Assembly (NCBI GenBank): GCA_900557355.1
Contig: USSR01000032.1
Coordinates: 1-20,465, forward strand
Length of the DNA: 20,465 nt
Direction of reading: 5' to 3'
From: an uncultured Bacteroides sp.
GTDB lineage: Bacteria > Bacteroidota > Bacteroidia > Bacteroidales > Bacteroidaceae
The notes under the pieces are model-generated. The model saw nothing but the letters and a program-made list of their open reading frames with translations. It was not told the DNA's origin and ran no database searches. Each line of letters begins with the position of its first letter. The stretch's first letter is position 1. The translations under genes were made by a program, and so were the position numbers. Shown here piece after piece: positions 101-20,465 of this stretch.

Positions 101-241
101 AATCGCGGAGACGCTTACCTAATCGCCACAGGTGAAGAGGTGGTGAAGTTGTTACCCTTCACCCGCAAACTCCTTATTCATCGAAGAGACAGAGAAAAGG
201 TGAAAGAAAACATAGAAAGATTGAAAATAAATATCCGATGA
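101..241 (+). pseudogene. possible remnant of a plus-strand gene
   Basis: A frame beginning just after an in-frame TAG (98-100) stays open for 46 codons to TGA at 239-241. It reads NRGDAYLIATGEEVVKLL, then a basic and acidic stretch ending in RDREKVKENIERLKINIR. The composition looks like a real helical protein tail, but there is no ATG and no family I recognise. It may be the 3' fragment of a broken gene. The rest of the gap between 85 and 390 holds only the weak promoter-like site noted separately. Confidence 0.25.
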
Positions 242-312
242 GAAAATCCATTCTATTCTGTAATAATTAAAAACCGCACCGATTAATTACTAATCCGTTA
301 ATCACTATTTAA

Positions 313-383
313 TACCTTTGTGCACCATTATGAGCTTTCCAACTAAATTTCAAAAGAGCAACTACACCCAAACTTCATATTAA
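313..383 (+). promoter_or_regulatory. promoter-like box before a 17-codon open frame
   Basis: TACCTTTG at 313-320 fits the Bacteroides -7 consensus TAnnTTTG. No TTTG sits at the expected distance upstream. An ATG at 330 opens a 17-codon frame (MSFPTKFQKSNYTQTSY) that ends at TAA 381-383, seven bases short of the convergent DUF4369 gene stop. It could be the cut-off 5' end of a former gene. It could equally be chance in A/T-rich DNA. Confidence 0.2.
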
Positions 384-389
384 GAAGAG

Positions 390-1184
390 CTATTTTGAAA
401 TAGCCTCGATGAAACGAGGGGCATTATTATGTATACTATCCAACAGAGATTTAGTCTTTTCTCTATACTCCTCCTTTTTAATAGTATAGTCCCGCCAAGC
501 CAAAAGGATGTCCCGATCAGCTTTGGGCATTAAATTGAGAATATGCAGGCATTTGGAGAAAACAGGACTCTTTGACGCTCTTCGCCCATTCAAATAGAAA
601 GATAACCAATATCGTACAACATTTGGATACATAGCATATTTCTCTAAGAAAATAAATTTCCCTTCCTCGGCATATGTGTATACCTCACTTAAAGATATGC
701 ATTTATTATCTTTTAGAGTATCACTTTTTATTGTATCTTCTCGTTTAGTTCTTAAAGAACGCGTCTTACCAATTAGTTTCCCCCGTTCAATAATATATTT
801 GTTGTAATCGTCGTTTATAGAAGTACCTGACACATCACCATCACTTGCCCAGTCAACAACGCGCATCTGAATATTGCCAGGTTCTACTATAAAAGTTGTG
901 CTATATTTAAGATATCTGCTTTTACTACAAAGAACTAATGCTAAAAAAGGTTCTTGATTGATCGTCCCTTCATAATGAAACACTTTATCGACCACCAATA
1001 TACTGTCAATGAATGCTTGCTTTGAACGTTCATATTCACCTTGAAGAGATGAGAAATCATATAGCAATACATATTCATTATCCAAAGAATGATCAGGAAA
1101 TTCACCTCTGATTGTGTATCTTTTTTGTCCATAAGATAGATGTAGCATAGATACGAAAATAAAAAAGAATAGATGTTTTATCAT
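390..1184 (-). CDS. secreted DUF4369-domain protein lacking a thioredoxin domain
   Basis: 264 residues. Residues 1-20 are a signal peptide (hydrophobic run ending in SYGQ), so the product is exported to the periplasm or outer membrane. Residues 21-130 match the DUF4369 pattern: a beta-rich domain with a GEF near the start, a D-S-I element, a VEPGNIQM strand and a GTSINDDYN motif. In Bacteroidetes this domain is usually the N-terminal half of TlpA/AhpC-type thiol oxidoreductases. Here the protein ends with NNAPRFIEAISK, where the thioredoxin fold would normally start, and no CxxC is present, so redox activity is not expected. The start is supported by the leader ACTAATATT just before the ATG, which is identical to the leader of the radical SAM gene at 10567. 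It has its own copy of that promoter and may belong to the same regulon. Confidence 0.75.
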   Translation of the reverse strand: MIKHLFFFIFVSMLHLSYGQKRYTIRGEFPDHSLDNEYVLLYDFSSLQGEYERSKQAFIDSILVVDKVFHYEGTINQEPFLALVLCSKSRYLKYSTTFIVEPGNIQMRVVDWASDGDVSGTSINDDYNKYIIERGKLIGKTRSLRTKREDTIKSDTLKDNKCISLSEVYTYAEEGKFIFLEKYAMYPNVVRYWLSFYLNGRRASKSPVFSKCLHILNLMPKADRDILLAWRDYTIKKEEYREKTKSLLDSIHNNAPRFIEAISK

Positions 1185-1261: not shown

Positions 1262-1310
1262 CCGTATACAAATGTGTATACATTGGTAAATATACACACT
1301 TTGTATACGG
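1262..1310 (-). promoter_or_regulatory. long inverted repeat, possible operator or terminator (left copy)
   Basis: Arms CCGTATACAAATGTGTATA (1262-1280) and TATACACACTTTGTATACGG (1291-1310) pair with one bulge around a 10-nt loop. The left arm contains GTATAC twice. The repeat sits between the regulator remnant and the promoter, touching the -33 region. It could be a binding site for a dimeric HTH protein. It could also be a transcript hairpin followed by TTAATGTTTTT, that is, a terminator or attenuator. Position and preserved symmetry in both copies favour function. The sequence does not decide between these roles. Confidence 0.7.
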
Positions 1311-1400: not shown

Positions 1401-3329
1401 TTACCACCACACTTGTTTACCATCTTCATAAGTAAAAATTCTCTCCTCTACACCATTGGTTAGATTATGTAAAATATATAATCGGTCAGCAGGTACATTG
1501 GAAAAATTTAAACTGAAATCGGTAGCAATCTGTTCTCCAAAAAATTTCCAAGAAGAATTGTCCCAATATTCCAAACGATATTGATTTCCCGGAACTATAA
1601 AGTTAGAATCTGTTTGAGGAACATATCTTACGCGCGTTATCTCATATGAATTATCCTTTCCTAAATCTAAACAAATATTACCTTTTTCTCCTTTATTCTT
1701 CTTAAAATAAGTATCGAAACTCCGATCCAAAGCCATCGTCCAATTTGTTTTAGTTTGCTTTATTGGTTCTCCGCTAAATCCACCTGTCAATAGAACTTCA
1801 ACATTTGTCCCTCTCTTCTTCCCATAAAATTCTATTTCAGCCAAATTACCTTCTTTCTGTTCATCAAAAACTAATCGCACATACCTGTATGGTCTATTCA
1901 CTGTTACGGTTGAATCAAAAAAATCTTCATTCCCTAATTCATCAATTGTTATTAAAGTCCTGCCTGAAGAGAATTCTCTATCATCTGATACTTCTATTTT
2001 AGAGCCCAATAGTCCTTTCCTAAAAGAAGAAATGCGTGTGAATTTCGGGTATTTACGAACCAACCGCATATCTACATGATTTTTTGTGTAACATTGAATC
2101 AATTTTACTTCACCACTTTTGGTTAGAACAAACGGCTCTGTAGCCGAAATAAAAGTTCCATTAACATAAAAACCAGCCATATAACATACATCGCCTATCA
2201 TATTTTGAAAATGAAATACCCCATCAGTCACCTTACCAAAATCAACAGGCACCCATTTCTTATTATCAAACACACAAATAACTCCATAAGGACAGTTATT
2301 ATATTGTTTCATATCACTGCCCTTTATCTCCACATCATAGGTATTAAAATAAAGATGTGAGACATCCATGCGATTTGGATTTAGCATATAGTCAGGAACA
2401 TATTTTCTCGCATCCCCATCAATAACCTGTGTTTCAAAAGTTTGCCGATAAATTTTTGCTGGTTTATAAGCCAATTTCATTTTCTTTCGATCTAATGCGT
2501 CAAAAGCAAGAAATGCTCCACTATCCTTTAGAACTGCCACCCATTCATGTCCACCAGCTCTGTTCCCCCAACAATTAACATAATCTATTGTTGCAGGAAT
2601 GCCACAAGCACGTAAAGCTGCCACATAATACTCACAAAAATGACGACATGATCCTCTACGAGTTTTTTCTAATTGAGATTTAGTTAAAGATATCGCATAA
2701 TTCCACATTTGCTTACTATTTTGGTATTTACGTACTTTGACAAATTCGTGATATAGATCTTTTATAATCCGACTTTCGTCAAACATAGAATCTCTTAGAG
2801 AACGCAATTCCTCGAATTGTTTTCTTCGCTCCGGCTCTATTGGCTCATTGCCAACCCGATAAGGCAATACGTATCTGCAGAATAGATTAAAATCACGCGT
2901 GATAAAATTAGGGGCTGTTTGCCATGCTTCAAAAGCCACATCAATATTATCTATTAAAAAAGATGCAGATAAAGTTTTCCTATCATATTCACGTTCAAAT
3001 AGTGAAGGTTTCATTTTCCCATAAGTCTGAATTAAGGTATGCCAACATTTTTTTGCCAGTTCTGGTTCTGATGAGGTTTCTCCTTTTTTATTTAATTCAT
3101 CATAAAGTGCAAAAATCGTGTCATAACGTTCAATATCCTCTTTACAATAAGCAAATTTGTCACCTATATTATCCAACAATAATGTTGCTGCCGCTAATTT
3201 CAATGAATCATTTTGATAATGTGCTAAAACTTTCCGTGTGATAATCCTATTTCCAGAGTAGAAATATACTCCCCAGCAAATAACAGTAACGCCGAGAAGC
3301 AAAAAACTTATTTTCATCAACGCTTTCAT
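1401..3329 (-). CDS. transglutaminase-like protein with discoidin-like C-terminus
   Basis: 642 residues. Residues 8-25 form an N-terminal hydrophobic helix (signal anchor or uncleaved signal), placing the rest in the periplasm. Residues 215-285 hold a transglutaminase-like papain-fold core: RRGSCRHFCEYY with candidate nucleophile Cys228, GGHEWVAV with His261, and FDALD with Asp277 completing a Cys-His-Asp triad. Residues about 480-630 look like a beta-sandwich of the F5/8 C (discoidin) type: YRYVRLVFDE, an AEIEFYG strand, and a second module with a SFDTYF element. Such domains usually bind glycans or other surfaces. The start is 4 bases after the ligase-like gene stop, so it is the last gene of the operon. 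It could be a peptidase, an amide cross-linker, or catalytically quiet. Substrate is unknown. Confidence 0.75.
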   Translation of the reverse strand: MKALMKISFLLLGVTVICWGVYFYSGNRIITRKVLAHYQNDSLKLAAATLLLDNIGDKFAYCKEDIERYDTIFALYDELNKKGETSSEPELAKKCWHTLIQTYGKMKPSLFEREYDRKTLSASFLIDNIDVAFEAWQTAPNFITRDFNLFCRYVLPYRVGNEPIEPERRKQFEELRSLRDSMFDESRIIKDLYHEFVKVRKYQNSKQMWNYAISLTKSQLEKTRRGSCRHFCEYYVAALRACGIPATIDYVNCWGNRAGGHEWVAVLKDSGAFLAFDALDRKKMKLAYKPAKIYRQTFETQVIDGDARKYVPDYMLNPNRMDVSHLYFNTYDVEIKGSDMKQYNNCPYGVICVFDNKKWVPVDFGKVTDGVFHFQNMIGDVCYMAGFYVNGTFISATEPFVLTKSGEVKLIQCYTKNHVDMRLVRKYPKFTRISSFRKGLLGSKIEVSDDREFSSGRTLITIDELGNEDFFDSTVTVNRPYRYVRLVFDEQKEGNLAEIEFYGKKRGTNVEVLLTGGFSGEPIKQTKTNWTMALDRSFDTYFKKNKGEKGNICLDLGKDNSYEITRVRYVPQTDSNFIVPGNQYRLEYWDNSSWKFFGEQIATDFSLNFSNVPADRLYILHNLTNGVEERIFTYEDGKQVWW

Positions 3330-3333
3330 ATCT

Positions 3334-5343
3334 TTATTCTATTTCATTCTTCAAATTTTCATTATACCACAGATTAAATAAAAAAGAGTATTGCTCATTG
3401 ATTATTTTATTTATATCTTGCTCTACGGGAGGCATATAACTTCTGTCTTTAGAAAAAACACCTAATTCCATTATACTCCCTCTTTGTCGGTACAGACTAG
3501 CTTGTTCTAATTTTCCCTCTTTCTCCAATATGGAAGCTAAATTAAACCATACCCGGGATAGGTTGGGTAATTGTTTGCTAACTTCATTCAAATAGGACAG
3601 TGCTAAATCGTTTTTTCCTAATTGTAAAGCTATACTTCCCCATTTAGCTAATTTTATTACATTTAAAGGCTTTTCCTGTTTTTCTTTTAATAATCTGCCT
3701 ACTACCAGCTCTGCGAATCCAGGTTCTTGTTCATTAAGTTCTTTCCAAAAAGAAGTCCCAAGAATTCGAGGATTTTGTAAGATACAAGATCTTAATTCAG
3801 TTGCAGCGTTCTCTAACTGATGCTGTTGTTTATATTGCTCATATAGTGTCCACCGGAACAATAACTTGTCAGGATAGAGTTCCGTCATTTTTCTAAGTTT
3901 ATCTTCGTTGTGAACTGCATTTTCTTTTTCTGACCAGCAATATTCATAATAAGCCAGATGAACATCTAAGGGATTTTTTAATTGAGCTTGCTTTATACAT
4001 GTCAACGCCTTTGGTATATTAACCTTTCGATAAGCCATAGACTGATTAACTAATCTTGCAACATCATGATTAACGTTACAATTAAATCTAAAAATATAAA
4101 ATACACATATCCATGCCAAACAGGGTATAGCAGCTAAAATCTTTATATTCGATCGTTGCACAATTACTATTTCTTCTTTTTGCAGGAAAGCGATTAATAT
4201 CAAAGCTGATAATCGGACACTACTGGAATCAAAGAATGTAGAAAATGTTTGTTCCCGAAGAAAAAAGGCGAACAGAAAAAGAAATAATAGCCACAAATTA
4301 CGCTTCTTCGCCTTCACTAAGTAGTAAACTATGGATAAAAGAAATAATATATAAAATATCAGACCGGCATATCCGCCTTCAATACCTATCTTTAAAAATG
4401 AATTCGCAGCGTATGAAGTATAAGAGTCAACCCTTTTTTCTCCATGCAAATAATAGTCCTTTGCCAATGTGTAATTATTGAGTCCCACTCCAAAAGGATA
4501 TTCTTTCAAGACATCCGTTGTTGATTGGAAGGTATTTATTCGGCTTTTCGTACTACGCTGTTGGGATACAGTCTCATTTCCATGAAGTGTTTTTTTTATT
4601 TCTGTTGAATAAAGGCAAGCAACAACTATTACTAACAAACAATAGCCTCCACCAATAATTATCTTTTTCCTTTCGAATAATTTCCTATGTTCCAGCACAA
4701 TTAACAATATGATGAAAACAATACCGGCAAGATAAATACCTCGTGAGAATGAAACTAAAGCCAAACATAAGATTATTGCACCTGATAGTAAAGCTATACC
4801 TTTTATTATTTTATTCTCACTATAAATATAGACAGCCGTTATAATCCCGCCAAACAACCATTGAAGGCTACTCCATTCATTATTGGGTACTCCCAATGGT
4901 TTATATAAAAATCTGAAATCATAAAGAGAACTAAAACCCATTTCATGCACTGACACACAGAAAAGATAAAAAGAATAAAAGGCTAATGCGGATAAGACAG
5001 CAATACAAACGGTAAATGATGATAGCAATGACTGTTCTCCTTTCTTATCGTATGTGATAATATACCTCAAAAGAAAGTAATACAGGATATTTGATGTGAG
5101 TGTAATAAAAGAATACGCACTCCCTGCGAAATTAACAGTAGGTCCCATCCCTATATATGCCCATAAAAGGAGCAAACATAAATCAATGATAGTCAGTTTT
5201 ATCATTTGCCTGGTTAGACAGACAGTAAGGCAAATAACCAAAAGAAAAGTACAGATAAAGTATGGATCTTGTACGTAGAAAAAACGCATAAGAAACATGA
5301 AAACCAATAAACAACAAGCTATTTTATTTATTATTTTTTCCAT
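3334..5343 (-). CDS. O-antigen ligase family membrane protein with TPR tail
   Basis: 669 residues. Residues 1-400 contain about ten or more hydrophobic helices in the O-antigen ligase/polymerase (Wzy_C-like) arrangement, with a larger non-membrane loop at about 255-325 that ends in the typical ANSFLKIGIEGGYAGL segment. Residues about 420-640 are soluble and helical, with TPR-like repeats (for example the LALSYLNEVSKQLP and VWFNLASILEKEGK pair). Known members transfer lipid-linked glycans to lipid A core or to proteins (PglL/PilO types). The TPR tail is common in Bacteroidetes members. The start overlaps the end of the M50-like gene by 13 bases, indicating translational coupling, so it belongs to the peptide operon rather than to a separate O-antigen locus. 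A role in glycosylating or surface-anchoring the peptide or barrel is inference. Confidence 0.75.
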   Translation of the reverse strand: MEKIINKIACCLLVFMFLMRFFYVQDPYFICTFLLVICLTVCLTRQMIKLTIIDLCLLLLWAYIGMGPTVNFAGSAYSFITLTSNILYYFLLRYIITYDKKGEQSLLSSFTVCIAVLSALAFYSFYLFCVSVHEMGFSSLYDFRFLYKPLGVPNNEWSSLQWLFGGIITAVYIYSENKIIKGIALLSGAIILCLALVSFSRGIYLAGIVFIILLIVLEHRKLFERKKIIIGGGYCLLVIVVACLYSTEIKKTLHGNETVSQQRSTKSRINTFQSTTDVLKEYPFGVGLNNYTLAKDYYLHGEKRVDSYTSYAANSFLKIGIEGGYAGLIFYILFLLSIVYYLVKAKKRNLWLLFLFLFAFFLREQTFSTFFDSSSVRLSALILIAFLQKEEIVIVQRSNIKILAAIPCLAWICVFYIFRFNCNVNHDVARLVNQSMAYRKVNIPKALTCIKQAQLKNPLDVHLAYYEYCWSEKENAVHNEDKLRKMTELYPDKLLFRWTLYEQYKQQHQLENAATELRSCILQNPRILGTSFWKELNEQEPGFAELVVGRLLKEKQEKPLNVIKLAKWGSIALQLGKNDLALSYLNEVSKQLPNLSRVWFNLASILEKEGKLEQASLYRQRGSIMELGVFSKDRSYMPPVEQDINKIINEQYSFLFNLWYNENLKNEIE

Positions 5344-6524
5344 ATTATTTTTCTTAATAACGGACTCAACATTCTATACAGCATATAAAGAAAGAAATAC
5401 AAAAACACTATTTGTAAAATACATTGTTGCAGATTCCCCCAATTAGGCATTTGATGATGTGACAGATTCATTAATAATAGTTCAATTCTTTCAGGAAAAG
5501 TATGATAGAATCTAATAAAAAAAAGTGGTAGCATATACAAGAAATAAAATCCGAAAAAGAAGTTTACCACTATTGTATAGATAACCAATGCTATTTTAGT
5601 TCCTTTGGAGAGTGACATTAAGTAAGGAACTTTATTAGTATTTTTATGCCTAAATTTGTTTATCATATACAGCATCCATTCTTTTCCTTTTTGACGTAAA
5701 TTGGCAACACCTAAAACATCTGTCATAATCCAATATCCATCGAATTTAAAGAATGGATTTAGTGTGAGTAGGAAATTGAAATTCATAATCAATATGATAT
5801 AGCTCAATAAACTACTTTGAGAATATAAATAAATTACCAAAAATGGAATTAAAAGTAATATCTGGAAATAGACTCCTCCAACATTAACAATACATCTTTT
5901 TTTTCTTGGAAGTTTCCAGACGCTTGATACATCTGTATAAAAGACTGGTATATTAATGTACAATCCAAGCCCGATCCCTCCATGAGAAATATCAAAATAG
6001 CGACAAGCTGAAGCATGTCCTAACTCGTGAAAAAGAGAAGAAAGAATAAAAAAGAATAGTAATCCGCTTAAAATATAAATATTCAAATTTAGGTGTTCTT
6101 TACCTATTGTACTGTATTCTATAAAGTAGAGAACATCCAAAGCTATAAAAAATAATATGACGAACAATATGAACCATTTATTAAATAAAGGAGCTAACAA
6201 CGAGGAACATTTGTTGATGACATTCGCTGATATGAGTTCTCTATTATACAGAAAAGACTTTCTTTTGTTAGGAAGTTCGCTCTCTTTTTCCAACTTCTTA
6301 GCAAAATCATTTAAAAACGTCAAAATTTCCTCTTTCGAAAACTTTCCATTTTGTTTAGAATATTCTTCAATACTTGCTTCTTCACAACCGTTACATTTAA
6401 AGTAGGTCAGAAGTTCAGCCACATCTTTACCTATTTCAAAGAAACGTCCCGAAACCTCCATAAGAAAAGTTTCATGAAGGGAAGAAGTTGAAAATGGCCG
6501 GATTTCTATCTCTTGTAAATTCAT
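5331..6524 (-). CDS. PqqD-like domain fused to M50 (site-2 protease-like) membrane protein
   Basis: 397 residues from the ATG at 6524. An upstream ATG at 6608 is open but would overlap the barrel gene by 74 bases, whereas 6524 starts 10 bases after that gene's stop. Residues 15-80 resemble a PqqD/RRE-type leader-binding domain (FLMEVSGRFFEIGKDVAELL, then two short helices). Residues 115-395 form a multi-helix membrane domain. HELGH (His166, Glu167, His170) is the M50 zinc motif and NPFFKFDGYW (Asp262) is the matching distal Asp motif. PqqD-M50 fusions occur in RiPP loci, where they are thought to act on the precursor or its export. A leader-peptide protease or membrane chaperone role here is inference. 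It lies between the barrel gene and the ligase-like gene and is coupled to both. Confidence 0.75.
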   Translation of the reverse strand: MNLQEIEIRPFSTSSLHETFLMEVSGRFFEIGKDVAELLTYFKCNGCEEASIEEYSKQNGKFSKEEILTFLNDFAKKLEKESELPNKRKSFLYNRELISANVINKCSSLLAPLFNKWFILFVILFFIALDVLYFIEYSTIGKEHLNLNIYILSGLLFFFILSSLFHELGHASACRYFDISHGGIGLGLYINIPVFYTDVSSVWKLPRKKRCIVNVGGVYFQILLLIPFLVIYLYSQSSLLSYIILIMNFNFLLTLNPFFKFDGYWIMTDVLGVANLRQKGKEWMLYMINKFRHKNTNKVPYLMSLSKGTKIALVIYTIVVNFFFGFYFLYMLPLFFIRFYHTFPERIELLLMNLSHHQMPNWGNLQQCILQIVFLYFFLYMLYRMLSPLLRKIIWKK

Positions 6525-6534
6525 TTGCTTCGTT

Positions 6535-8850
6535 TTAATCGCTTGATATGGTTGACTGATTCGTATCTTGTATAACCGAGTTATCGAATTTATGTTTTTT
6601 CTTTCCAAAAGTGAAACGATAATTTACTGATAAGCTAATTACATGATCGCTAACACGAGGTATTCGGTTTTCATATCTTCTTTCATAACCAATTTGCTGA
6701 AGGTGCCCCTTAGAAACTGCCTTGTACGGCGTTTGCATATATAAATCAATATTCCAGTTGCTGATACTGTAACCAGCTCCGAATCCCAGCATTCCAGGAA
6801 AATGAGTCATAAGACCGGAAGTGATTTTCATATACTTTGATGGTGCCATATAGTTTACATCAAAGCTCCAACCATTATGCATATAAAAAAGAGAACAGCA
6901 AAAGAAAAAACGATCAAAAGAAAAATCTTTCCACAAGGACACATCCATGCGATCATAAATCAGCACTGGCCTTAAACTAAATATCTGGGGAATAATATCA
7001 TATTGCAAAGCCAATTCATAGTGCTGACTCAAACTTTTGCTTCCATTCAAATTTTGATATACAAACATTTTCCGTTCGTCATCATAACGATATAGTTCAT
7101 AGTTCTGCGGATTACTTATGTGCAAACTAGCATAAGAAAGCAATGTCCACCTGGAATTCATAGTCCAATCATAATTTAATCCTGCATTATATTGCAAATA
7201 GTCTTTTAATTTAGGATTTCCTACAAACATCTCGTATTCATTTTTTTTATATTCGTAACCGGTACGATTTGAAAGACTTATTTCTGTACTACGGACAGTT
7301 CCGGTCAACTTCAACGAATGTCCCTTATGAAGATAGGAGAGTTTCAATGAAGGTATGAAGAAAGAACTGAACACATGATTTCCATTCGTCGTAGTATATG
7401 ATAAATGTTCGGCAATGCTAGCTTGTAGATTAAATTTCTTCTTAATGCGATAATTATATGTAGCATAAAAACTGGTATTACCTTTATTTAAAAAGATCTC
7501 TGAATTTTGCCCCTCTTTTGTATTTAAGTTGTTAGTATGCGTAAAATTCTGATTTAGAGTCAAACTGACAGATGATTTATTTTTGAAACTTTTACTATAG
7601 TTACAATTAAGTCTTCCATACCAACTACCTTCGGCAGTAGCATTGGCATAAGAAGACGTTATGACTTCATCCGTACGCTGCTCATACCATCGATTGTAAT
7701 CGTTGTTTCCATAACTTCCATACAACTCCAATCGAAGTATCTGCCTTTTGGGAAGAGTACGATTATAGCGTAATTGTAAAGCCGGATTCAACCTAACAGT
7801 ATGTTTGTATTCTTGTTTCACGAGAACAGCGGATGTATTATTATACCGTTGCCGATTCCAGTTGTCATTTTCAGACATACTCCTATTCATCCGTAAAGAA
7901 GAGTAAAATGTTTGCAACTTATCTTTATATATATAATTTAGATAAGCTTTCAGGTTATTATTATTGTTTAATGAGGGCAATTCATCGTCTGTCCGGATGA
8001 TGGTTTCGTCAGGAAAATGATAAATTGTTTCGGTATATCCTTCGTCATGATTTCTAAAATGAGTATAATTGTCCGATACTGATACAGCCCATTCAGATTT
8101 TCCTTCAAAATACTGGGCAGTTCCTCGTCCAGTGCCTGTTGGTTTGTTCAATTGATGCCTTGCGTTTAAAGCGATTGTTCCTAAGTAATCCCGTTCTTTA
8201 AGTATATAATCTAATATAGTAGAAGCTTCCGGGTAATCGGAACGACCTTGAGAATAAAAATCTACACGTTTAATATCTTTTGGGTTTAGATTCTGCACTT
8301 CTTCCCGTGTTGCCTCACGTCCGTCAATACACAATAATACGTTTTCTCTATGATAAGTGATAGTTGCACTTCGAGGGTCAGCTTCCAGCCCCGGAATCAT
8401 TAACGCACGCAAAGCACTGTATCCGTCATAAGAGTGTCGTAACTGCTCGCGAGTAGGGAATGCCATTATTTTGTCTTCGGTATTTATCCGATTGGGAGCT
8501 AGCACAGTTACTTCCTGCATCTGTACCACTTTCTTATCCATCGTTATTTCTCCTAAACGAATCAGGGTCTCTTTGGTCGGATTCAATACTAAAGTAGTTT
8601 CTTTATAACCTAAATAACTGATTAATAGCTTGTACTTTTGTTCCGTATGTGGAAGTTTGAGTTCAAATTCTCCTTTACTATTCGTAGTTCCCCCTACCAC
8701 AAAAAGCGTGTCATTCAGATAGCAGCGTATAGTTGCAGCCACTAAGTCTTGTTTCTCTTCATCTATCAGATGCCCCTGAATTTTCAGTTCCTGTCCAAAA
8801 ACAGATATAGAAAAGAGTAACATACAAACTAAAAATACATTATTTTTCAT
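6535..8850 (-). CDS. TonB-receptor-like outer-membrane beta-barrel protein
   Basis: 771 residues. Residues 1-20 are a signal peptide (ends ISVFGQ). Residues 21-105 are a carboxypeptidase-regulatory-like Ig domain (GHLIDEEKQDLVAATI to LGEITM), as in SusC-type receptors. Residues about 125-225 form a plug-like domain (SYDGYSALRALMIPGLEADP and LCIDGREATREEV). Residues about 230-760 alternate aromatic beta strands typical of the outer membrane protein beta-barrel family, with a final barrel strand near SLSVNYRFTFGKK before a short polar tail. It lacks the usual SusC length (about 1000) and has no SusD partner, so nutrient import of a large glycan is less likely than passage of the peptide product or a small ligand. 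It follows the precursor gene after a 110-base gap holding a hairpin. Confidence 0.75.
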   Translation of the reverse strand: MKNNVFLVCMLLFSISVFGQELKIQGHLIDEEKQDLVAATIRCYLNDTLFVVGGTTNSKGEFELKLPHTEQKYKLLISYLGYKETTLVLNPTKETLIRLGEITMDKKVVQMQEVTVLAPNRINTEDKIMAFPTREQLRHSYDGYSALRALMIPGLEADPRSATITYHRENVLLCIDGREATREEVQNLNPKDIKRVDFYSQGRSDYPEASTILDYILKERDYLGTIALNARHQLNKPTGTGRGTAQYFEGKSEWAVSVSDNYTHFRNHDEGYTETIYHFPDETIIRTDDELPSLNNNNNLKAYLNYIYKDKLQTFYSSLRMNRSMSENDNWNRQRYNNTSAVLVKQEYKHTVRLNPALQLRYNRTLPKRQILRLELYGSYGNNDYNRWYEQRTDEVITSSYANATAEGSWYGRLNCNYSKSFKNKSSVSLTLNQNFTHTNNLNTKEGQNSEIFLNKGNTSFYATYNYRIKKKFNLQASIAEHLSYTTTNGNHVFSSFFIPSLKLSYLHKGHSLKLTGTVRSTEISLSNRTGYEYKKNEYEMFVGNPKLKDYLQYNAGLNYDWTMNSRWTLLSYASLHISNPQNYELYRYDDERKMFVYQNLNGSKSLSQHYELALQYDIIPQIFSLRPVLIYDRMDVSLWKDFSFDRFFFCCSLFYMHNGWSFDVNYMAPSKYMKITSGLMTHFPGMLGFGAGYSISNWNIDLYMQTPYKAVSKGHLQQIGYERRYENRIPRVSDHVISLSVNYRFTFGKKKHKFDNSVIQDTNQSTISSD

Positions 8851-8880
8851 TCTATATAAAATAAAAATAGAAGTTACATA

Positions 8881-8919
8881 TCAGTATACTCTCTCAAATC
8901 AATTGAGAGAATATACTGA
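8881..8919 (-). terminator. hairpin between precursor and barrel genes (partial terminator or mRNA stabiliser)
   Basis: TCAGTATACTCTCTCAA (8881-8897) pairs with TTGAGAGAATATACTGA (8903-8919) with one mismatch and a 5-nt loop. On the minus-strand transcript it lies about 42 bases after the precursor stop. No T run follows immediately, so it may give leaky termination or protect the 3' end of the precursor mRNA, letting the peptide be made in excess of the downstream envelope proteins. This is a common arrangement in peptide operons, but the role here is inferred. Confidence 0.6.
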
Positions 8920-8960
8920 AAATAGATTCAATAATTAGCTTTAATTCATTACGGAATTAC

Positions 8961-9203
8961 CTAATCTACCGAACAATGAAATCTTCCACAATGCTCTGAA
9001 CAATGGTCATCGCAATGAACGTCACAAGTAAATTCATCGCAATCTTTACCACAAGAATATGCTTCAACTCCATCAAAATCTCCAGATAGTAATCCACCGA
9101 TAGCCAACGGATCGGTTTCTAACCGCTGTTCCAATTCTTCAACATAAAGAGTTGGCAACTCTACATTCAAAGAACGTAGTTCTTTTTTCTCATTTTGTTC
9201 CAT
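8961..9203 (-). CDS. Cys/His-rich precursor peptide of a radical SAM RiPP
   Basis: 80 residues. Residues 1-45 look like a leader: charged N-terminus, then LNVELPTLYVEELEQRLE, then TDPLAIGGLLSGD with a Gly36-Gly37 pair. Residues 50-80 look like the core and carry all seven Cys (51, 55, 60, 64, 68, 72, 77), at intervals of 4, 5, 4, 4, 4, 5. Each of the last four Cys is preceded by His (63, 67, 71 or 76), and Asp follows three of the Cys. There is no signal peptide. It starts 23 bases after the stop of the radical SAM/SPASM gene. Cys-rich cores next to SPASM maturases are typical of thioether-forming RiPPs (sactipeptides and ranthipeptides), but the repeat pattern matches no family I know. A metal-binding peptide is the alternative. 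Confidence 0.8.
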   Translation of the reverse strand: MEQNEKKELRSLNVELPTLYVEELEQRLETDPLAIGGLLSGDFDGVEAYSCGKDCDEFTCDVHCDDHCSEHCGRFHCSVD

Positions 9204-9226
9204 AAAAATAAATTTTAATTAATATT

Positions 9227-10567
9227 TTATTTAATGCTTAAATAAGCCTTATTCGCAGCATTATGAACTATATCCTCCATATGCGTACAACGATGTTTCT
9301 GTAAGTTTTGTGCCGGACATCCACCGCCACACAGTAATGCGTATTTACAGCTTGCGCATATAGCATTCTCCAAAAGATAGGTCTTTCTCCAACGTTCTTC
9401 GACTTGCTCATTCCAAACAATATCATTATTCAAAGAATAATTACCTATACAATGTTCTTTTTGATTCACAGTCTCCCAGCATGTATAAATTCTACCAAAT
9501 GGATCAAACACAAATCCACCCGTTTGAGCACTACAAAAAGTAGAACGAAAAGATAGAGGTTTACCTTGTTTTATCGCTGCATGAATTCTACGATATACTC
9601 CATAATCTTGGCAAGTAGATTCCAAGCCATGTTTTTTATGCCATTCTATAAAATCTTTCTGTGAGAAGTATTGATAGGCTTTTTCTGTACTATCGGAATA
9701 ATTTCTTAATAATGCAGAGTTTATAGAAAATAAAGGGTTCTCTGTATAGCCCAAATCACAAAAAATCGTTTGTAATCCCTCTAAATCTTCTATATTGTTT
9801 CGATCAGCATTCACTCTAACTGAAATAGCAACTCCTTTATTCAAAGCAATTCCAATATTTTCTACAATCGTATCAAATGTAGGGTATCCTTGATAATGAA
9901 TACGACGTTGATTATGACGTTCTCTAATGCCGTCTATCGTTATCTGAATAAAGCTAATATCTTCCGGCGAGAGAAGATCTTCATAATATTTCAGGTCATA
10001 ACCATTAGAGATAGCAGAAAACTTAAATCCTAATTCTTTACCCTGTTCAATAATATAAGATATAATATTCTTATTTCTCTTTAATAGAGGTTCACCGCCA
10101 TACAAGGTTATTGACCTTGAGCGTAGTCTTTCGTCTGGTGCTATCTGTAATATAGCTTGATAGGCTTTATCTACCATCTCTTTGGTGAACGCTGTTCCAT
10201 CTTTCTGAATATCTTTTTCAAAACAATAGGGACAACGAAAGTTACAATCATAGGTAATTAGAAAAGTAAAACCTTTACGTAGTATACTTTCTTTTCTAAA
10301 AAGTGCTGTTGCTAAACGTTTAAAGTATTCTTTTTCTTCATCTTCTGTTTGTAAAGTGATATATCCTCTTTTTTCAAGAGCATCTTTTGTACTTTCTTCA
10401 CAAGGTAGCACAGCCCTATCAAAATAAGGATTTTCTATCAGAAACCTTACTATGGACTTATCTATTAAATCTATAGCACCGGTATAGCCATGTATTAATA
10501 GGCTATCGTCAGGTTCACTTTCTAATTCTATCGATATTGCATACGATGATAATCTGTATTTTTCCAT
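9227..10567 (-). CDS. radical SAM/SPASM peptide maturase
   Basis: 446 residues. Residues 1-95 form an N-terminal domain with features of RiPP maturases (possible leader-recognition region, not certain). Residues 100-300 are the radical SAM core: CNFRCPYC gives the CxxxCxxC cluster motif (Cys108, 112, 115), followed by LYGGEPLL and the ISNGYDL and QITIDG strands. The C-terminus is a SPASM domain with auxiliary cluster ligands: Cys345, GRIYTC (Cys363), the exact CX2CX5CX3C set at Cys404, 407, 413 and 417, and a last Cys427. Such enzymes act in the cytoplasm to make thioether or other crosslinks on precursor peptides, and the 80-residue Cys-rich peptide gene directly downstream is the obvious substrate. 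The start is supported by the conserved ACTAATATT leader shared with the gene at 1184. Confidence 0.9.
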   Translation of the reverse strand: MEKYRLSSYAISIELESEPDDSLLIHGYTGAIDLIDKSIVRFLIENPYFDRAVLPCEESTKDALEKRGYITLQTEDEEKEYFKRLATALFRKESILRKGFTFLITYDCNFRCPYCFEKDIQKDGTAFTKEMVDKAYQAILQIAPDERLRSRSITLYGGEPLLKRNKNIISYIIEQGKELGFKFSAISNGYDLKYYEDLLSPEDISFIQITIDGIRERHNQRRIHYQGYPTFDTIVENIGIALNKGVAISVRVNADRNNIEDLEGLQTIFCDLGYTENPLFSINSALLRNYSDSTEKAYQYFSQKDFIEWHKKHGLESTCQDYGVYRRIHAAIKQGKPLSFRSTFCSAQTGGFVFDPFGRIYTCWETVNQKEHCIGNYSLNNDIVWNEQVEERWRKTYLLENAICASCKYALLCGGGCPAQNLQKHRCTHMEDIVHNAANKAYLSIK

Positions 10568-10642: not shown

Positions 10643-10649
10643 ATATTAA

Positions 10650-10697
10650 CCATATACAAATGCGTATACATTTACTTATACACACATTTATATATGG
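10650..10697 (-). promoter_or_regulatory. long inverted repeat, possible operator or terminator (right copy)
   Basis: Arms CCATATACAAATGCGTATA (10650-10668) and its near complement (10677-10697) enclose an 8-nt loop. It starts 20 bases after the regulator stop and ends just before the -33 region of the maturase promoter. It could be the regulator gene's terminator (TTAATATTTTT follows) or a binding site for the regulator. Several bases differ from the left copy (for example CCG to CCA at the outer end, with GG retained), and some changes on the two arms compensate each other, which supports selection for symmetry. Confidence 0.7.
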
Positions 10698-10717
10698 TTT
10701 TACTATAAAAAAGAGAA

Positions 10718-11098
10718 TTATTCTAAATACAATGATTTGACAAAATCTGTAATAGATTCACAAACAACATTCATTTTTTTCTTCAATCTACTACGCCGTA
10801 TTCTAAAAGAACTCTCTAAAACATGAAACAACTCTGAAATTTGAGCATTATTAAAATCAATACGTAATAAAAGAATGATATGTATATCGTCTTCCGAAAG
10901 TGCAGGATAATAATGTCTTAACTTATAGATAAAACCATCCTGATGAAGATTTATCCAAAGTTCTAATTTATTCCAATCATGATTACTTATTACAGACAGA
11001 GATGTGATATAAATTTGTGCATCATAAGCTGTTTTCCAATCATTCTGTATATTTGAAACAAAACATTGGAGTTCTTCTAAATCTTCTTTTTCATTCAT
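10718..11098 (-). CDS. small LuxR-type HTH transcriptional regulator
   Basis: 126 residues, no signal peptide. Residues 1-60 are helical without a recognised domain. Residues 65-112 match the HTH found at the C-terminus of many Bacteroidetes TPR/DUF6377-type regulators: YPALSEDDIHIILLLRI, then QISELF and the recognition-helix region SSFRIRRSRLKKKMN. It resembles the output domain of those larger proteins without any sensor, so its activity may depend on abundance or on a partner. It starts 32 bases after the GH28 stop and ends 20 bases before the inverted repeat upstream of the maturase. It probably controls that promoter, and perhaps the duplicate promoter at 1224. A 3' fragment of a paralogue lies at 1325-1390. 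Confidence 0.7.
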   Translation of the reverse strand: MNEKEDLEELQCFVSNIQNDWKTAYDAQIYITSLSVISNHDWNKLELWINLHQDGFIYKLRHYYPALSEDDIHIILLLRIDFNNAQISELFHVLESSFRIRRSRLKKKMNVVCESITDFVKSLYLE

Positions 11099-18088: not shown

Positions 18089-19771
18089 TTATTTTAAATT
18101 CCATTTGATAAAATAGTCTCCATTCATTATTTTGGAACGAATGTCTTCAGCATTGCCAGTAGTTTCGTACTTTTCCGAAATATACTTCGCCATGAAACTA
18201 TTATCATTATAACGTTTTGCCATACGAATCATAGCCGGATAAACTTTTCCTTCGCATGCCATTTCCAGCATCATTTCTTTCAATATTTCTTCGTCATTGT
18301 TTTGTACATTAGATGTGAAAGTACGTGCTCCTAAGTTACTATAGCTTACTTCTACTCCACGAATCCCTCTGTCACCATATTTACGACTACCAATACCAGT
18401 TGTCCCGTTTGAATAATAATATACAGTACTATTATTCGTCCAATGAGGAGTAATACCATACCAATTGCCGGAATAAGTACCTTCCTCATCAATATCAAAC
18501 TCACTAGAGTAGGCATTGACTCCTACATTAATTAGTGCGTCAACTACAGATCTTCTACCTAATTGATTGAATGCTTCTGCCAACATAAAATAAAGGTCTG
18601 CACCGCGGTAGGTATATACGAATACATCATCGCGATAAGCGGTACGTACAGGTTTAGAAGTTGGACGGAATTTGCTGATAACCCATTTACCATTGTATTC
18701 AGATACTGTGTAACCCATTCTGAAATCTTTATCTTTACTACCCAGCGGACCGAAGTCATTATCTCTGAAACGTTCTACAGCGACCTCTGCCGGTGCCAGC
18801 CAATATTTATTCGGATAATCAGAGTCGAAATGCTTCAGCAGACTGTTTGTCTGCCTGTTTTGATAGTCATACATAATTGCTGACGCCGATTCATAATCAT
18901 ACGGAGTCTCGTTATTAAAGAAATTGGTATAATGACTGAACAACATATCATTACGTAAGAAAGCGATAGATTGATTGGTAGTACTTTGGTAGATACTGTT
19001 CATCTTATTAAGTATCAAGTTGACACATTGTTGGTATCTACCTAACCACAAACAAATCTCTGCATATAGAGCATAGTAAGGAGGAGTCATCATATCCCAG
19101 CGGCGATATTCACTATTTGCCAGCTCCGTATCCGGGTCTACCCAGTCTTTCCATGCTGTTTCGTAAGTTCCTCCAATATTGTCATAACCAATATCTAGCA
19201 GATTCTTGCAAGCTACCATCGTTTCGTCAAGATTCAATATGTCAAACTGTGACAAATCTCTCAACGAAGTCATTGGTTTATCCACCCATGCTACTTCTCC
19301 GTAGATTTTAGCGATCGTCATAAACATCCATGCCTTGACACGCAGCGTGCTGCTGACCAATGCTTTATAGTGGCTTTCATTAATAGAGTTCTTTTCTTCG
19401 TATGTTTTCAATTTCCGAAGATAATCGTTACAGGCATTTATTACTTCGTAGAATCCAGAAGGATCTGCATATGAATTACCACTTAAATCATCATCGTAAT
19501 TGTACAAGTTGTAGAGTTCAGTGGGTGCCGTTGCAGTCGGCACCACCATTTCTCCCCGAAGTTCATTCAGATAAATCACTTTGTCTCCAATGGCTTGCAT
19601 TTTAGTCATGATACCAATGTAACCGGAGTACATCTCACTTTCTTCTGATATATAATCCTCATTATCCAGGGTAACATCTGTATCAGGATTGAAGAAGTCA
19701 TCGCATCCTCCCAATAAAGTAACCGCCAGTATGAAAGCGGCATTTAATAATATCTTTTTCATCTTCATCAT
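18089..19771 (-). CDS. susD: SusD/RagB family outer-membrane glycan-binding lipoprotein
   Basis: 560 residues. The lipoprotein signal ends LLGGC (Cys23) followed by DD, as in surface-exposed Bacteroides lipoproteins. The N-terminal part after the anchor (FFNPDTDVTLDNEDYISEES) is the usual SusD opening, and the TPR-like helical scaffold follows (VKAWMFMTIAKIYGEVAWVD, YYALYAEICLWLGRYQQCVN, LYFMLAEAFNQLG). The C-terminal region carries the EMMLEMACEGKVYPAMIRM element typical of the family. SusD proteins sit on the SusC barrel as a lid and capture glycan at the cell surface. The ATG overlaps the susC stop by one base (TAATG), so the pair is translationally coupled. The gene name is used in the family sense only. 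Confidence 0.93.
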   Translation of the reverse strand: MMKMKKILLNAAFILAVTLLGGCDDFFNPDTDVTLDNEDYISEESEMYSGYIGIMTKMQAIGDKVIYLNELRGEMVVPTATAPTELYNLYNYDDDLSGNSYADPSGFYEVINACNDYLRKLKTYEEKNSINESHYKALVSSTLRVKAWMFMTIAKIYGEVAWVDKPMTSLRDLSQFDILNLDETMVACKNLLDIGYDNIGGTYETAWKDWVDPDTELANSEYRRWDMMTPPYYALYAEICLWLGRYQQCVNLILNKMNSIYQSTTNQSIAFLRNDMLFSHYTNFFNNETPYDYESASAIMYDYQNRQTNSLLKHFDSDYPNKYWLAPAEVAVERFRDNDFGPLGSKDKDFRMGYTVSEYNGKWVISKFRPTSKPVRTAYRDDVFVYTYRGADLYFMLAEAFNQLGRRSVVDALINVGVNAYSSEFDIDEEGTYSGNWYGITPHWTNNSTVYYYSNGTTGIGSRKYGDRGIRGVEVSYSNLGARTFTSNVQNNDEEILKEMMLEMACEGKVYPAMIRMAKRYNDNSFMAKYISEKYETTGNAEDIRSKIMNGDYFIKWNLK

Positions 19772-20465
19772 TAGAATTTCAAGTTAATACCCAGTTTGAC
19801 AGATTTCGGTTGCATCACTTTCGCATAATCAAATCCTTGTGTAGCATTGCTGCCAGATGAATAAGCGAATTCCGGATCCATACCCAAATATTTGGTAGCG
19901 GTCAACAGGTTTTCTCCTGTCACATAAATTGTTCCTGAACGGAAAAAATTCCAAACTGGTTTGTCGAAATTATAGCTTAACGTAATACTCTTCATGCGTA
20001 GGAAAGAAGCATCTTCAATCCAACGGGAAGAGAAGTTGTTATTGCCGATAGCATCTCCATAGCTAGCGCGTGGAATATTGGTAACCTGTCCTTCTACATT
20101 CCAACGGTTGGTCACTGCTACACTTTGGTTAGAGAAAGAAGAAACTGATTCCAGTGTCCTTCTTACCGCATTGTATGCCTCATTCCCTTTTGAATAAGAA
20201 ATTCGGCCGCCAGTGCGAAATGCTTATAACGGATATTGGTATAGAATCCTCCAAAGTAATCAGGAGTGGCACTACCCAATGATACATAATCTTTAGAATC
20301 GATGCGTCCGTCATTATTCTGGTCTACATAACGTACATCACCAGCACTATATGCTTGATTACTGCTGTTGGTCAATGCGGCTTCACTCGCTTCCGCTTGG
20401 GTAGAGTAGACGCCATTTGCTTGCAATCCGTAAAATTCGTATGGATTTCCACCTACACGACTTAC
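19771..20465 (-). pseudogene. susC: 3' part of a SusC-type TonB-dependent transporter gene, frameshifted
   Basis: The gene enters from the right edge reading VSRVGGNPYEFYGLQANGVY and continues with the DQNNDGRIDSKDYVSLGSATPDYFGGF motif region found near the end of SusC barrels. After KHFALAAEF the frame is lost. Reading resumes one frame over as SYSKGNEAYN, VTNRWNVEG and the conserved SRWIEDASFLRMKSITLSYN, ending at TAA 19773-19771. Restoring one T in the TTT run at 20199-20201 rejoins the frames exactly (E-F-S-Y-S-K-G). This may be a true mutation, phase-variable slippage, or a sequencing error. As read, the barrel would lose about 140 C-terminal residues, including the last strands, and should not assemble. 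The 5' part lies outside the window. Confidence 0.88.

Follow-up and report, generated by a model that had tools for sequence, protein, structure and literature searches.

What is a TonB-dependent barrel doing in a peptide maturation operon that holds no ATP-binding cassette (ABC) exporter? The question is raised by a locus in contig USSR01000032.1 of an uncultured Bacteroides sp. (assembly GCA_900557355.1), of which the whole 20,465-nt stretch analyzed is called the window here. Six intact, ATG-started genes run on the minus strand from position 10567 to 1401 with intergenic distances of 23, 110, 10, -13, and 4 nt. In order, they encode a radical S-adenosylmethionine (SAM)/SPASM maturase, a precursor peptide, the barrel, an M50 membrane metalloprotease, a membrane protein with the fold of the O-antigen ligase WaaL, and a transglutaminase-like protein. 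We tentatively read the locus as an operon for a ribosomally synthesized and post-translationally modified peptide (RiPP) that may be built around the peptide and its own receptor, akin to the lock-and-key pairing of pyoverdine with FpvA, and we put the probability of this reading at roughly 45%. That the barrel acts on the recipient side is suggested by its exchange together with the peptide core and by its retention in genomes that hold neither maturase nor peptide.

The exchange is seen on comparison of the window with the nearest different allele, locus L040 of genome G324 (G and L numbers being our handles for genomes and loci). Fitted with two breakpoints, the best segment extends from 9022 to 6628, from inside the precursor gene to near the end of the barrel gene, with 358 mismatches in 2,399 positions inside it and 63 in 7,303 outside (log-likelihood gain, 359.6). 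Divergence is accordingly 14.9% in this 2.4-kb block and 0.9% elsewhere in the operon, leader included: the leader shows 0 differences in 141 nt and the core 20 in 102. Synonymous divergence (dS) is 0.402 for the barrel, versus 0.019 for the maturase, 0.042 for the M50 protein, 0.036 for the WaaL-like protein, and 0.020 for the transglutaminase; it is 0 for the leader and 0.15 for the core, where nonsynonymous divergence (dN) is 0.23. Given this local rise in synonymous change, the cassette is best explained as imported DNA rather than as faster protein change. It forms one exchanged block (6628..9022) that takes in most of the precursor core, the intergenic region, and nearly the whole barrel. 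The genome nearest to the window (G001, locus L023) has 0 of 2,399 mismatches in the same block and 32 of 7,303 outside. For this one close pair, then, the alignment demonstrates at the level of sequence that core and barrel were exchanged together. Four further loci, L041 to L044, occupy one site, judged by their flanking genes, and are consistent in direction with the window/L040 pair: L041 and L042 are 32% identical in the core, 64% in the barrel, 77% in the maturase, and 85% in the M50 protein, and L043 and L044 are 92%, 98%, and 99% identical in core, barrel, and maturase, respectively. L042 also carries a second, truncated barrel that is 74% identical to the L043 barrel and 25% to its own, as would be expected from a past replacement at this site.

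The barrel itself (771 aa; minus strand, 6535..8850) comprises a signal peptide, a carboxypeptidase-like domain, a plug, and the barrel proper, and has the fold of a TonB-dependent transporter, with the plug within a 22-strand outer-membrane barrel. Residues 113 to 117 are EVTVL-like, with V114 invariant and E113 and V116 nearly so (alignment A2), a segment that we compared with what we take to be the TonB box motif. Among 158 genomes of the genus, 57 had some barrel match at 1e-60, mostly a distant one; genome counts here and below are lower bounds, part of the first-look candidates having been scored per genome (six per genome for the barrel). Strong group I barrels (at least 589 bits) occur in at least 6 of the 158, four in the operon and two outside it (G315 and G305). 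Barrels of group II (E ≤ 1e-130) were found in at least 13, of which four lie in the operon (G302, G314, G206, and G336), one is a truncated extra copy (G383), and eight lie elsewhere. Around these orphans, 18 to 20 kb was read for both group I and seven of the eight group II barrels. In G411, at the same site as L041 to L044, a full-length tetratricopeptide repeat (TPR) regulator, a barrel 98.8% identical to that of L043, and an M50 remnant are present; maturase, precursor, WaaL-like, and transglutaminase genes were not found in the 18 kb read. The G315 barrel is 93.4% identical to that of the window and lies by genes for a further Wzy_C protein and a divergent transglutaminase-like protein; neither a maturase nor a precursor turned up in its vicinity, and a search of the whole genome at 1e-60 gave no maturase. 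G305 and others likewise hold a barrel without a maturase at 1e-60 and are receptor-only genomes by this measure. The orphan barrel of G426, on a 9.4-kb contig, adjoins a C39-type gene, and the distant orphans (32 to 46% identical to the L043 barrel) may have another role. Taken with the exchange in the close pair, the persistence of barrels alone points to recognition of an exported peptide, as far as sequence comparison can tell, and not to attachment. Second barrels were also seen in L074 (11368-15398; in tandem and shorter, 571 aa), L029 (1121-3415; upstream), and L073 (2409-4135; broken, upstream).

Such persistence bears on an alternative in which the modified peptide has its exit through the barrel, which would be an outer-membrane conduit of TonB-dependent-like type, matched to the core for passage. 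An export role is favored by a second architecture (G203:C3 and G693), in which no barrel was found and genes for an ABC ATPase, two MacB/FtsX-type permeases, and TolC directly follow the WaaL-like gene (checked with Pfam for G203:C3 only); no match to these MacB/TolC genes was found in the 15 loci with a barrel. G203 holds one locus of each architecture, and the only inner-membrane parts common to both are the M50 and WaaL-like proteins. Since MacB/TolC pumps draw their substrates from the periplasm, this points to the M50/WaaL-like pair as a candidate for the inner-membrane step. Also in favor of an exit, distant barrels in L109 (6618-15746) and L110 (6373-9089) stand next to genes that look, from sequence, like C39 ABC transporters, and the accessible text of PMC8939145 predicts export by TonB-receptor-related proteins of Bacteroidetes graspetide loci. 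A barrel that served the export of its own peptide alone would not be expected to survive by itself, however, and intact barrels do occur in places that lack both peptide and maturase. Moreover, the MacB genes do not stand at the barrel's place in the operon, and the top 50 structure matches listed are receptors or importers, by roles that we partly presume. On balance, we regard the exit as unlikely, if still a serious contender. Also in L109 are a gene resembling those of the TPR regulators, one for a small protein, and one for a further radical SAM enzyme.

A peptide that kills would account for the same two observations, because the joint exchange of core and barrel and the retention of barrels without peptide both fit immunity. 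The peptide would then be a bacteriocin and the barrel a resistant version of its target, or a shield, co-acquired as in the BSAP systems, in which, as here, a surface molecule is acquired together with a secreted agent in Bacteroides. According to the accessible portion of PMC4999547, BSAP genes adjoin resistant replacements of their targets, sensitive strains hold the other target version, and the toxins are MACPF-domain proteins, unlike the peptides considered here. The present barrels, in at least 6 (group I) and at least 13 (group II) of 158 genomes, do not resemble a gene that most strains hold as another allele. Nothing indicative of toxicity was found either, and we consider a bacteriocin improbable. 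A match of the maturase to viperin, the only anti-phage model that it hits, covers the radical SAM core, and an anti-phage role was rejected.

The six genes recur as a set. A maturase search at E ≤ 1e-60 yielded 22 loci in 21 genomes from overlapping samples, with matches in 6 of 301 genomes of the family, 10 of 158 of the genus, 2 of 393 of the order, and 3 of 228 of the phylum, and in 4 of 61, 1 of 5, 1 of 18, and 3 of 200 genomes in samples taken around other matches; at a looser 1e-20, 19 of the 301 family genomes matched. Gene content was read from 12- to 20-kb stretches with reference proteins as queries. A precursor with an LETDP or METDP leader adjoins 17 of the 22 maturases, and among these 17 loci the barrel is present in 15, the M50 protein in 15, the WaaL-like protein in 14, and the transglutaminase in 14. 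The preliminary description had proposed scoring the four other genes beside the maturase/precursor pair, and the envelope genes do travel along in most loci; what it had named as counterevidence, occurrence of these genes apart from maturase and peptide, was encountered in part, since barrels exist without either. Its picture of a RiPP-type locus without the usual exporter set also holds: no match to C39 ABC or HlyD, each searched with a single query at 1e-8, was found in the 17 loci or in plasmid CP061010, save cross-matches to MacB ATPases (L027 and L048). In the genus, relatives of the M50 protein (E ≤ 1e-10) occur in just 10 of 158 genomes, 8 of them adjoining the maturase, so that the grouping of the six genes is not accidental. 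The WaaL-like protein (E ≤ 1e-20) occurs in 7 of the 158, all 7 within these loci.

The whole set is also found on a complete, mobilizable 18,812-bp Muribaculaceae plasmid (CP061010, locus L068), with the WaaL-like gene interrupted by an insertion and the transglutaminase gene on the opposite strand, and with no match to C39 ABC, HlyD, MacB, or TolC genes. The gene unit is thus self-contained and mobile. The plasmid search returned one other record, a Rhodococcus radical SAM protein; a scan of genome contigs with back-translated patterns gave one distant locus only, at 22% identity, and a pattern scan of viral contigs gave no relatives.

Some loci are incomplete. No LETDP/METDP precursor was found in G334, which carries C39 ABC and HlyD genes, or in G421; G986 (L072 and L076) ends at a contig edge, G1151 has an LETKP precursor and an M50 gene, and G1110 has an M50 gene with no precursor found. 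Among the 17, the G262 locus (L026) looks decayed, with a 9-residue core devoid of Cys and no M50, WaaL-like, or transglutaminase gene seen, on a contig that starts ~1 kb past the precursor. No transglutaminase was seen at the G383 locus, and the G829 contig (L074) ends just past its second, shorter barrel, so that the missing genes of G986, G829, and G262 are not fully judgeable.

At the head of the operon, the maturase (446 aa; minus strand, 9227..10567) matches Pfam Radical_SAM (1.2e-12) and SPASM TIGR04085 (56.6 bits; cut-off, 27), and the three Cys of its CX3CX2C cluster motif are invariant in the maturase alignment. The best RiPP maturase model, TIGR04463 for Cys-rich RiPPs, gave 143.5 bits against a cut-off of 525, and NF047865 for PapB-type ranthipeptide maturases gave 119.3 against 340; membership of either family was rejected. 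No NCBIfam model scored above its cut-off for the whole maturase (among the best 25 of 66 families), the M50 protein, or the precursor. The precursor (80 aa; minus strand, 8961..9203) divides into what is taken as the leader (9063-9203), with the motif LETDPLAIGGLL, and a core (8961-9062) that in the window contains seven Cys and four His. In 11 close relatives, selected by hand from 31, median identity is 82% for the leader and 31% for the core; in 18 precursors (window, genome loci, and plasmid) the last 24 leader residues are 58% identical and the core 25%. The peptide had been described as rich in Cys and His: Cys number 2 to 9 per core among the 31, save one decayed core with none, and the abundance of His is a trait of this allele, 15 of 31 cores having no His. 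A metallophore by composition was rejected, as the 31 cores have no common ligand pattern. The core/leader comparison left out P0001, which nearly duplicates the precursor of the window, as well as P0022 and those of 25 matches that were fragmentary or out of frame; the maturase and transglutaminase alignments left out L044 (a near copy of L043) and L073 to L075, and the L048 maturase piece fell below the length limit.

The M50 metalloprotease (397 aa; minus strand, 5331..6524) contains HELGH and NPFFKFDGYW, the motifs HE.GH and FDGYW being invariant in 12 aligned rows. Its start is the ATG at 6524 rather than the upstream TTG at 6608, so that the barrel and M50 genes do not overlap. The short gaps reported earlier are real, and so is the single tight operon of intact genes; of the several overlaps reported, only one remains, 13 nt between the M50 and WaaL-like genes. 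The best M50 matches are the proteases of the daptide (NF041824; 82.9 bits, cut-off 300; residues 53-317 of the TTG-started open reading frame [ORF]) and YydH/LiaK epipeptide systems (55.0 bits, cut-off 225; residues 95-313 of that ORF); both are under the curated cut-offs, membership was rejected, and the precursors and partner genes of those systems presumably differ from those here. Pfam finds no PqqD domain, contrary to the preliminary description, and the N-terminal part is possibly a leader-binding domain.

The WaaL-like protein (669 aa; minus strand, 3334..5343) combines the WaaL fold (compared with 7tpg) and two conserved Arg with a C-terminal TPR domain. The transglutaminase-like protein (642 aa; minus strand, 1401..3329) matches Transglut_core (2e-07) and carries a C-terminal discoidin-like domain (F5_F8_type_C, 0.0047, under the cut-off). 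The M50 and WaaL-like alignments left out L044 and L073 to L075, and the latter also the L025 protein (wrong ORF start). These two proteins had invited the idea that one of them links the peptide to an envelope glycan, lipid, or protein for display at the surface. Where WaaL has H313 (numbered by counting along the alignment), which we take to be the catalytic His, all nine rows have A, P, or S, and the third transglutaminase position is not conserved. Furthermore, G206 has neither protein in the 20 kb read and keeps maturase, precursor, barrel, and M50 protein. Surface attachment is left unsupported, and we deem display very unlikely.

Under the preferred reading of a peptide paired with its own receptor, the radical SAM/SPASM enzyme would recognize the conserved leader and, judging from its family, put bonds, probably thioethers, into the variable Cys-rich core. 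The M50 protease would remove the leader at the inner membrane, and the WaaL-fold/TPR and transglutaminase-discoidin proteins might act on the core in the periplasm or move it there. Because the operon contains no ABC exporter, the core may cross the inner membrane by another route. The barrel would be matched to the core, the two changing as one against a constant background of leader, maturase, protease, and other genes, as one pair indicates and two are consistent with. By gene content, barrels are retained in genomes from which maturase and peptide have disappeared or in which they were never present. The barrel may then take the released peptide, perhaps with bound cargo, back across the outer membrane, or may protect against it. 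We hold as doubtful the fuller proposal that core and TonB-dependent receptor form one exchangeable specificity cassette in a constant, mobile operon of a new RiPP class, with ABC-free crossing via the M50 protein and a WaaL-fold protein without the ligase His, and with producer, multi-receptor, and receptor-only Bacteroidales.

Several results weigh against the pairing of peptide and receptor. The cassette evidence comes mainly from one genome pair, and G411, with its lone barrel, is a metagenome-assembled genome of 71% completeness. The loss of the WaaL His and the lack of a shared metal-binding pattern in the 31 cores count here too, as do the barrel-less loci, in which MacB/TolC would fit an export role for the barrel elsewhere. 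Across distant loci, core-barrel similarity given the maturase was not significant in partial Mantel tests (r = 0.11 and p = 0.14 for 14 loci, r = 0.00 and p = 0.50 for 12, r = -0.25 and p = 0.96 for 10), and long-range covariation beyond relatedness was rejected. With the barrel controlled for, the core instead follows the maturase (r = 0.49 and 0 of 2000 permutations for 14 loci, r = 0.32 and p = 0.007 for 12, r = 0.13 and p = 0.20 for 10). These tests left out L026, L027, L045, and L048, for want of a complete core or a barrel or because their frames were broken. L028 and plasmid locus L068 share a near-identical Cys segment of the core (core, 58%) with barrels only 30% identical, and L029 and L074 show no excess (core, 62%; barrel, 70%; maturase, 77%). 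Finally, variable barrel positions, with heights set by hand from the DSSP line and not from coordinates, lean outward for L040, P0147, and P0150 (5, 4, and 13 of 530 circular shifts, respectively) and show no such lean for P0146, P0148, and P0149 (129, 132, and 112 of 530); outer-loop variability is inconsistent between alleles and was set aside.

Upstream of the operon lies a 126-aa protein (minus strand, 10718..11098), of uncertain operon membership, that resembles the C terminus of the TPR regulators preceding related operons: it is 25 to 29% identical to the 510- to 638-aa proteins of L026, L041, L042, L043, and L044 and scores 16.4 bits against the BT3442 family (cut-off, 940). It is followed by what reads as a polysaccharide-utilization locus, with a GH28-like gene (by sequence reading), a DUF4450 protein, one further gene, a SusD-like protein that scores under the Pfam cut-off, and the final part of a SusC-like gene (again by sequence reading). 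Judged by first residues, the SusC/SusD-like genes (window 18089-20465; L023 1-3173; L040 39-2425) look different among the window, G001, and G324, and the genes beside them start alike; they may form another exchangeable pair. On both sides of the operon lie similar palindromes (window 1262-1310 and 10648-10699; L023 19835-19939), each adjoining a 3' piece of the regulator-like gene. In L042 (9348-9716), L041 (11656-12057), L043 (13326-13706), and L075 (8483-8959), the gene next after the TPR regulator encodes a small, secreted, DUF3244-like protein; none was seen in the window. The downstream neighbor is a DUF4369 gene, whole in the window (390-1184) and split in G001 (L024 80-873), with multicopy relatives in L107. 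Identity to G001 and G315 starts at position 119 (window 119-398; L107 6699-8515), and in G315 that stretch adjoins a phage-type integrase gene; the operon may border a mobile element. No structured RNA was found at gathering scores.

Among known systems, the closest likeness is to pyoverdine and FpvA, which also join a variable secreted ligand to a matched TonB-dependent receptor and whose genomes likewise include single-receptor producers, multi-receptor producers, and receptor-only types (accessible text of PMC11734721). Here, in contrast, the ligand is ribosomal, a new core suffices for change, and any metal binding is conjectural. Most methanobactin operons likewise pair a RiPP precursor, mbnA, with a TonB-dependent transporter, mbnT, according to the available portion of PMC3621798; the present locus differs in its radical SAM/SPASM maturation, in that no MATE exporter was seen, and in its additional M50, WaaL-like, and transglutaminase genes. 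A radical SAM maturase is shared with the Bacteroidales RiPP clusters that carry C39 transporters, and the leader in the window also has GG. Of the nine clusters studied, seven carry a C39 transporter, versus none found in the 17 loci here, and the accessible main text makes no mention of TonB, M50, O-antigen, or transglutaminase genes (PMC10352776). From WaaL, with which the fold is shared, the present protein departs by the replaced His and the added TPR domain. The association of TonB-receptor-like barrels with RiPP loci is not new, export by them having been predicted before (PMC8939145); allelic pairing and barrel-only loci do not appear in the text of that paper available to us. A description of this gene set was not found in the literature searched, outside which many subscription papers and preprints lie, and within those bounds the locus is, as first supposed, undescribed.

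Social ligand-receptor systems of gut Bacteroidales are little known. The locus provides a concrete case for the role of TonB-dependent barrels in Bacteroidota RiPP loci and for the exit of a RiPP from a Gram-negative cell without an ABC exporter in the operon. If the reading is true, specificity would reside in one barrel and in a stretch of about 30 residues within a gene-encoded peptide, so that types could be read from sequence, and strains of gut Bacteroidales would trade, exploit, or resist peptide types.

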